Below, one piece after another: positions 157 to 3,100 of a DNA stretch of 64,000 bases. This DNA comes from Parvibaculum indicum (GTDB lineage Bacteria > Pseudomonadota > Alphaproteobacteria > Parvibaculales > Parvibaculaceae): positions 62,001 through 126,000 of the forward strand of contig NZ_JAASQO010000004.1 in assembly GCF_011762095.1 (NCBI RefSeq), given 5' to 3'. A model generated the notes under the pieces. The model saw only the letters and a program-made list of their open reading frames with translations, was not told where the DNA came from and did not search any database. Each line of letters opens with the position of its first letter. Position 1 is the stretch's first letter. The position numbers and the translations under genes were made by a program.

Positions 157-3100
157 TCAGCCGAAACCGCCGCCGCCCGGCGTGCGGATTATGATGCTTT
201 CTCCCGGCGCCAGCTCCATCTGGTCGGACCCCTTGCATGACTCGAGTTGACCGTCGCGCCGCCGGACGAAATTCTCGCCGCATGCCGCTTCGCCGCCGCC
301 CTCCAGTCCGAAGGGATGCACGATGCGGCGCGTGGAGAGGATCGACACGCTCATCCTTTCGCGGAAGGCGATCTCGCGCACAGTGCCGTCGCCGCCATGA
401 TGGCGCCCGGCGCCGCCTGATCCCTTCCGTATGCTGAACTCTTTCAGCAGAACGGGGAAGCGCCATTCCAGCACTTCCGGGTCGGTCAGGCGCGAATTGG
501 TCATATGCGTCTGCACCGCGTCCGCCCCGTCGAAATCGGGCCCTGCGCCCGCACCGCCGCATATGGTCTCGTAATACTGGTAGCGCTCGCTCCCGAAGGT
601 GAGGTTGTTCATCGTGCCCTGCGCGGCGGCCATGGCGCCGAGCGCGGCGAAAAGCGCGTCCGTCACCGCCTGGCTCGTTTCCACATTGCCGCCCACCACG
701 GCCGCCGGATAGCGCGGCGCCAGCATGGAGCCTTCCGGCACCACGATCTCGATGGGTTTCAGGCAGCCTTCATTGAGCGGGATGTCGTCATCCACCATGC
801 AGCGGAAGACATAGAGCACGGCGGCGCGCGTCACGGCGGAGGGCGCGTTGAGGTTGGAGGGGCGCTGTGCGCTGGTGCCGGTGAAATCGACTTTCGCGCT
901 GCGCGCCTCGCGGTCCACGCTCAGCCGGACCTCGATCTGCGATCCGTCGTCGAGCGGCAGGGTGAACGCGCTGTCGGTCAGCGCGCCGATCACGCGGCGC
1001 ACGCTTTCCTCCGCATTGTCCTGCACATGGCGCATATAGGCCTGCACCGTCTCGAGGCCGAACTGGCCGACCATCTTGCGCAATTCCTGCGCGCCTTTCT
1101 CGCAAGCCGCGATCTGCGCGCGCAAATCGGCGATGTTCTGGTCCGGATTGCGCGCGGGATATTTGCCGCCCGTCAGCACGTCGCGCATCTCCGCCTCGCG
1201 GAAGGTGCCCGCCGCCACCAGCCGGAAATTGTCGATGAGGACGCCTTCTTCTTCCACGGAGGTGGAATGCGCGGGCATGGAGCCCGGCGAAATGCCGCCG
1301 ATATCGGCATGGTGGCCCCGCGCGGCCACATAGAATGTGGGTTTGACGGTGTCGTCCATCCTTCGAGACGATGGTTCCACCGTCGTCTCGGGATGAGGTT
1401 CTGGGTTGTCCTCATGCTGAGGAGGGCCGGAGGCCCGTCTCGAAGCATCCTCGTCCAGATAGACCGGCGCGACCACCGTCACATCCGGCAGATGCGTGCC
1501 GCCATTATAGGGCGCGTTCAGCACGAAGACGTCGCCCGGGCGCATCTCCGGGTTCTGCTCGATGATGGCGCGCACCGTCGCGCCCATCGAGCCCAGATGC
1601 ACCGGCATATGCGGTGCATTGGCGACGAGCCCGCCCACGGTATCGAAGATCGCGCAGGAGAAATCGAGCCGTTCCTTGATGTTCACCGAATGCGCGGTCT
1701 TTTCCAGCGTGAAGCCCATCTGTTCGGCGATGGACATGAAGAGGTTGTTGAAGATTTCGAGCATCACCGGATCGGCCTCGGTGCCGATGGCGAAGCGCTG
1801 CGTTCGCGCTTCCGTCCGTGTCAGGACGATATGGTCGAGATCGGTCACGTCCGCCGACCAGCCGGGTTCGATGACGATGGTCTGTTGCGGCTCGATGATG
1901 ATGGCCGGGCCGGGCAGGGCGTCGCCGGGGGCGAGGCCTTCGCGCAGGTAGACCGGAGCCTCGTGCCATTCTCCTTGCGAGAAGAAGCGCGTCACCCGGT
2001 CGGGCGCCGCTTCGCCGCTGTCGCGCCGTCCGGCGTTCAGCCGTTCCGTCACATCCGCGGATTTGCCGATGGCTTCCACCGACACCGCTTCCACGATCAC
2101 CGGCTTTTCGACCGTGAAGCCGAAGCGCTGGCGGTGCGCCGCCTCGAAGGCTGCCCGCGCTTCCTCAAGCGCGCCATGGTCCACGATCAGCGCCGTATCC
2201 GTGCCCGCATAGCGCAGATGCAGCCGGGCCTTGAGCTCGATGCGGGACTTATCCACGCCCTGCGCCGCCACCTGGGCGCGCACCTCTTCCCCCAGCTCGC
2301 CCAGCACCGGGTCGAGCGTGGCGAGCGTGTCCGCGTCGAGGTCTTTCTCCACCGCCGTCTCGCGCTGCGCGCGGATATCGGCGAGCCCCATCCCATAGGC
2401 GGACAGGATGCCGGAGAAGGGGTGGAAAAATATTTTCGTCATCCCCAGCGCATCGGCGACGAGGCAGGCATGTTGTCCCCCGGCGCCGCCGAAGCAGGTC
2501 AGCGCATATCCGGTGACGTCATATCCCCGCTGCACGGAGATCTTCTTGATCGCCTGCGCCATGTTCTCGACGGCGATCTTGATGAAGCCATCGGCAATCT
2601 CTTCCGGCTCAAGCCCAATCTCACCCGAAAGCCTGTTGAATCTTGCTCCAACCTCAGCGCTATCTAGCCTTTCATCCGCTGCCGGACCGAAGACTTTCGG
2701 AAAATAGTCGGGGATAAGTTTGCCGGCGAGCACATTCGCATCCGTCACCGTCAGCGGGCCGCCCTTGCGATAGGCCGCCGGTCCGGGTTTCGCGCCCGCG
2801 CTGTCCGGCCCGACGCGCAGCCTGGCGCCGTCGAAATGCAGGATGGAGCCGCCGCCCGCGGCGACCGTGTGGATCTGCATCATCGGCGCGCGCATCCTGA
2901 CGCCCGCCACTTCATTGTCGAAGCTGCGCTCGAATTCGCCGTCATAATGGCAGACATCGGTGGAGGTGCCGCCCATGTCGAAGCCGATAATCCGGCTGAA
3001 TCCTGCGAGTTTCGAGGTCTCCACCGCGCCGACCACGCCGCCCGCGGGGCCCGACAACACCGCGTCCTTGCCCTCGAAAAGATGCGCCTCCGTCAGCCCG

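Follow-up and report, generated by a model that had tools for sequence, protein, structure and literature searches.

RIME in rhizobia and Bru-RS in Brucella are palindromes about 100 bp long that lie between genes, and the genera Erythrobacter and Sphingopyxis, to which we come below, are alphaproteobacteria. REPINs, as the available text of Bertels and Rainey 2011 (PMC3116915) describes them, are inverted REP doublets with constant ends and a variable spacer that are dispersed between genes and show signs of movement. In its available sections, Di Nocera et al. 2013 (PMC3733652) reports intragenic REPs in several genera including Erythrobacter and Sphingopyxis, many of them coding for 20-30 residues and some lying in tRNA synthetases. 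The CGTC-tagged REPs of that study are mainly alphaproteobacterial, mostly dimers, with some copies inside genes, and are presented there as not associated with transposase genes; CGTC-1 to CGTC-4 have stems of 8-9 bp that start with A-T pairs, a loop of 4-5 and, in most cases, CCA as the tail. The same source gives access to the palindromic elements of Rickettsia (RPE), translated in frame within unrelated genes, while the Coxiella element QMITE2 is described in the available part of PMC5896051 as a hairpin element with alphaproteobacterial relatives of 83-100 bases and some in-frame insertions. The initial annotation of our locus considered the translation of palindromes less known outside Rickettsia; since intragenic REPs outside Rickettsia have been reported (PMC3733652), this has to be softened and the kind is already known.

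We analysed a window of 64,000 nucleotides from the 4.02-Mb draft genome designated here G000. It contains the gene of a fused hydantoinase A/B (5-oxoprolinase type), whose product scores 662 bits for Hydantoinase_B, 368 for Hydantoinase_A, 189 for Hydant_A_N and 39 for Hydant_A_C in Pfam, and whose closest named match, at 70% identity, comes from a MAG deposited as Parvibaculum sp. This match has the coordinates of G007, from the genus of G000, which is therefore probably Parvibaculum. The features, in window coordinates, are the following.

157-3858, minus strand: gene of the fused hydantoinase A/B, 1233 aa, carrier of the element (Pfam; omega)
1352-1450, minus strand: net insertion of 99 bp, in frame, 33 residues; the peptide stretch containing it begins at residue 798 (orthologue comparison)
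1352-1358, no strand: left 7-bp direct repeat TCGTCCA, of doubtful significance (direct reading)
1357-1398, plus strand: left REP unit (direct reading against other copies)
1399-1409, no strand: spacer of 11 bp separating the two REP units (direct reading)
1410-1448, minus strand: right REP unit, inverted, CCTCATGCTGAGGAG-stem-CGTCTCGAAGCAT (genome search and direct reading)
1451-1457, no strand: right 7-bp direct repeat TCGTCCA, of doubtful significance (direct reading)
50952-51059, no strand: second family copy of the window, intergenic and absent from the nearest genome, G015 (search, arm pairing and comparison with this relative)

The inverted REP pair spans 1357-1448 (about 92 bp), and the arms 1358-1370 and 1436-1448 show 92% pairing. 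Folded as single-stranded DNA, positions 1346-1462 reach -27.7 kcal/mol compared with a shuffle mean of -17.7, none of the 200 shuffles being as good. The hydantoinase reading frame stays open across the whole element. We noticed that in the left unit the GAGACG/CTCCTC asymmetry of the family has become the near-perfect palindrome GAGACG/CGTCTC, three bases off the family. Templated correction of a quasi-palindrome would yield such a near-perfect palindrome, and the left unit may be a product of it.

The hydantoinase site was readable in 21 of the 24 other genomes of the genus. Between PVY, PVF or PVH and FY, G000 has 41 residues whereas 20 of these 21 genomes have 8 (one, L037, by eye) and G015 has 9; taking the 99 bp out of the G000 gene leaves 8 residues between PVY and FY. 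The same stretch counts 6 to 14 residues in seven loci of other families. In G015, a 180-contig draft of 91% completeness that is 92-93% identical over both hydantoinase parts, the gene is uninterrupted. Thus, the claim of the initial annotation that the element, 99 bp (33 codons) together with one flank, had moved in frame into the gene and is read as about 33 residues is borne out by the open frame and by the 8-9 residues of the 21 readable orthologues.

G000 has a further REPIN in frame, inside glyS (G000:C7:29602-29700, L081). There, G000 GlyS reads YFACV-...-SKDGRLAPRF and G015 reads YFACTDKDGKLAPRF; the stretch has 36 residues in G000 compared with 6 in 25 of 25 other loci (G014 and G015 with two loci each), and the match of GlyS to its best solved chain breaks exactly at the insert. 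The structure model of GlyS had a mean pLDDT of 59 and was left unused.

Searched against its own genome, the element gave 77 matches (both strands, partial ones included), the best non-self match having an E-value of 1.7e-11. With at most one mismatch, the arm CATCCTTCGAGAC occurs 63 times in G000 compared with twice for the reversed control, and the retrieved stretches hold copies at 38 listed places, or 39 clusters by motif count. The arms and inner motifs are indeed those of the intergenic copy at 50953-51058, as first annotated: the alignment of the two has 115 columns, and its 74 identical ones cluster in the arms and in the inner CTCAT/TGAGGAG motifs. Full-length copies share only 67-77% identity with the hydantoinase copy and so do not point to a burst in the very recent past.

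In each REP unit, a stem that is variable yet self-complementary stands between two constant flanks, TTCGAGACG and CTCCTCAG. The 63 units of G000 carry 17 stems with a mean of 4.17 contiguous pairs, against 1.76 when the halves are swapped; the corresponding means are 4.63 against 1.85 in G004 (52 units) and 3.68 against 2.68 in G381 (100 units). The commonest stems are CGGC, GGCC and GCCC, and CGTC adjoins the stem. Neighbouring units stand in +- order in 20 of 25 cases in G000 (gaps 27-34) and in 21 of 21 in G004 (gaps 24-44), so that the inverted units at near-constant distance that are typical of REPINs were found in both, whereas in G381 no order prevails (6 cases of each of the three kinds). 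Some units stand alone, and some dimers have the opposite order; in G383, the dimers at the listed places appear by eye to be mostly reversed (-+), with a gap of about 34. The REP core was found in 46 of 385 genomes drawn from the Alphaproteobacteria, representing 36 of 276 genera, with zero for the reversed control among the rows listed. Rfam returned five weak matches, all far under the gathering scores. As a separate observation, motifs of another, CGTC-like REP type (CGTCATTGCGAG or GAAGCAATCC) lie at most 60 bases from 16 of the 38 listed G000 copies, the background rate among random 120-mers of these loci being 269 of 5000. Four copies are flanked by such motifs on both sides. The motif at the glyS copy is probably there by chance.

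We compared nine sites of our own choosing, two genes and seven intergenic sites, with G015. This genome lacks the element at seven of the nine (hydantoinase, glyS, C4:112952, C4:8815, C2:8294, C7:105206 and C2:189746), shares one copy (C7:89694, at a contig edge) and matched one flank alone at C10:165609. With seven sites empty and one shared, the family was active both before and after the split, with the caution that G015 is a draft of 91% completeness. Exact joins are unreadable at the intergenic sites because the spacers have diverged between the two genomes. The G015 site that corresponds to C2:189746 (L117, G015:C12) seems by eye to hold the other type of REP as a dimer. It is the empty sites of this relative alone that suggest movement; together with the genome matches, they support the mobile, non-autonomous family that the initial annotation had proposed, as one that is dispersed and moved since the split.

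The sole PF01797 (Y1_Tnp) match in G000 scores 144.6 bits as an IS200/IS605 transposase (cut-off 55) and 27.3 bits as a RAYT (cut-off 80). A RAYT, for which the initial annotation had suggested a search, was thus rejected for G000, the lone match being an IS200/IS605 TnpA. At that locus (L063:2317-5118), a TnpB-like gene of the RNA-guided endonuclease family stands on each side of tnpA, one divergent and one convergent. Within 8 kb around this TnpA gene we found no REP core and three partial motif matches. Y1_Tnp was found in none of the 26 other genomes of the genus, though G004 has 59 core units, and neither GTAG nor CTAC was found between 8 bases ahead of the core and 10 bases behind it in any of the 63 G000 units. 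The element could still be a REPIN whose movement depended on a RAYT, either one that other carriers encode or one that G000 has lost. Its inverted REP doublet has the anatomy of REPINs (PMC3116915, available text), Y1_Tnp genes occur in 8 of 22 chosen carriers compared with 1 of 13 chosen non-carriers, and one Y1_Tnp is present in G395, a carrier of 116 units to which three of the five translated copies described below belong. However, Y1_Tnp is absent from 14 of the 22 carriers, including three of the four richest (G381 with 153 units, G383 with 134 and G234 with 113), the REP core stands at just 1 of 20 fetched Y1 loci and GTAG at none of the 63 units, and we give this explanation a serious but minority share of our confidence.

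It is improbable that the element belongs to an ordinary insertion sequence as its MITE, bounded by terminal inverted repeats and by a target duplication of 6-7 bp. The long inverted arms and the direct repeat at the hydantoinase copy, which is 7 bp (TCGTCCA) and not 6 bp as first annotated, speak for it, as does the finding that direct repeats of at least 6 bp flank 4 of 28 full-length copies compared with 35 of 756 mismatched flank pairs; for at least 4 bp, the figures are 20 of 28 and 322 of 756. Yet this excess of short repeats is mild and, across the 28 copies, lacks the constant length expected of a MITE, and no duplication is visible at the glyS copy. A target duplication is thus unproven, and as a property of the whole family it is not supported. 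Moreover, single units and reverse-order dimers exist, and none of the four genes checked between neighbouring copies (amylase, TldD/PmbA peptidase, tRNA synthetase and TetR regulator) is a transposase.

Our survey for translated copies covered 241 clusters flanked on each side by 200 bases or more: 39 from G000, 29 from G004, 84 from G381, 30 from G383 and 59 from G395. Those outside G000 come from the listed places, nearly all of which were fetched (100 of 153 in G381, 50 of 134 in G383, 100 of 116 in G395 and 50 of 59 in G004). In-frame translated copies were found in 5 of the 241 clusters, four firm and one probable, by a test that is blind to out-of-frame insertions in genes. Besides the two G000 cases, G395, which belongs to another genus, has translated REPINs (L436, L394 and L433) in a 4-HFC-P synthase, whose match with a solved relative is interrupted by the insert, in a methyltransferase, where the Pfam match spans the insert, and probably in a DUF6064 protein, where the Pfam match begins only after it. 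No translated copy was found among the surveyed clusters of G004, G381 and G383. Some frame is open for 70 codons on each side in 36 clusters; two of these are the already Pfam-scanned genes, and 30 more ORFs were scanned, of which 3 had a domain, with L096, L098, L311 and L429 outside the scan. Pfam was used because codon-usage calls often picked shadow frames. Two candidates were rejected: the copy at C14:47197 (L096), which lies between two genes of the other strand in the ORF list, its long frame being a shadow frame, and L348 in G381, a chance match.

Genes occupy most of such genomes. With 5 of 241 clusters translated, copies inside genes are therefore strongly depleted, and genes are avoided, not preferred, by the element; in G000, 2 of 39 clusters were shown to lie inside genes, the copies being dispersed and mostly extragenic. 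Of the proposal that the element tolerates or prefers in-frame insertion, tolerance stands and preference does not. The element also does not look built for translation: of six frames, 2.0 are stop-free in the copies compared with 2.3 in shuffled ones.

As for the insert itself, all five translated copies show [P/R]HPE in their 3' half, which is only suggestive, as a built-in TGA in one of the three frames of that half narrows the choice of frame. Relative to G015, the hydantoinase gene has a dN/dS (omega) of 0.13 over 1201 aligned codons; judged by this ratio, it is under purifying selection, most of the signal predating the insertion. The element inserted where one strand turns into the next, at a place of varying sequence among orthologues. 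In a structure model of the B half (36 sequences, mean pLDDT 81), residues 111-139, most of the insert, fall below a pLDDT of 50 between strands E97-104 and E147-154, and two further short stretches are equally low; the insert is modelled as a disordered loop between two strands. That the enzyme has come to use the inserted residues is very doubtful: the kept frame and the common [P/R]HPE would fit it, but the loop is modelled as disordered, the TGA limits the choice of frame by itself, and only G000 has the loop. No function was found for the residues that the insert encodes. An assembly artefact is scarcely credible even for a draft of 37 contigs, as the copy stands 63 kb into a contig of 301 kb, leaves the frame intact and shows the anatomy of the family, and as glyS shows the same kind of in-frame insert.

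We therefore consider it likely that the insert is a REPIN-like element made of two inverted REP hairpins (about 92 bp), belonging to an alphaproteobacterial REP family, non-autonomous and moved through a trans-acting enzyme, and that it forms a neutral loop. As the comparison with orthologues shows, the element inserted into the hydantoinase gene with a net gain of 99 bp that keeps the frame. Its movement would have involved an intermediate with hairpin ends and an enzyme acting in trans, which may no longer be encoded in G000 or may escape recognition there; the loop would be neutral to the enzyme that carries it, and insertions that break genes would have been lost. A fuller reading, to which we would commit ourselves only tentatively and on balance not yet, is that of an alphaproteobacterial REP family with constant flanks and changeable stems, which moved free of RAYT since close species parted and which, in more than one genus, repeatedly turned into a translated loop of enzymes unrelated to each other, with a partly common hydrophilic frame in the five cases.

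In the open-licence papers searched, we found no description of this REP motif, which does not show its absence from print. Its likeness to RIME and Bru-RS lies, by general description alone, in the intergenic palindromes of about 100 bp, and QMITE2 was compared by description as well. With REPINs (PMC3116915, available text), the family shares the inverted REP doublets, the constant ends, the variable spacer, the dispersed intergenic location and the signs of movement; unlike there, we found neither an associated RAYT gene nor GTAG, and movement is seen only as empty sites. With the CGTC-tagged REPs, as far as the available text of PMC3733652 describes them, it shares the mainly alphaproteobacterial distribution, the dimers, the occasional copies inside genes and the missing association with transposase genes. 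By the same description it falls outside CGTC-1 to CGTC-4, as its short, variable G+C stems stand between TTCGAGACG and CTCCTCAG.

The hydantoinase, glyS and G395 cases are a further instance of a known phenomenon, in a REP family without a transposase found. They provide before-and-after pairs, an empty site in a relative and an insert, for a short DNA repeat turned protein in a bacterium other than Rickettsia, and the family, patchy yet widespread, lets the spread of RAYT-less REPs be tested in these genomes. Finally, like the RPE of Rickettsia (via PMC3733652, available text), the element is a palindrome translated in frame in unrelated genes, and in hydantoinase and glyS alike it sits in frame in a conserved gene whose orthologues lack it. 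This likeness is one of mode, and translation is rare here (5 of 241 surveyed clusters), unlike in Rickettsia.
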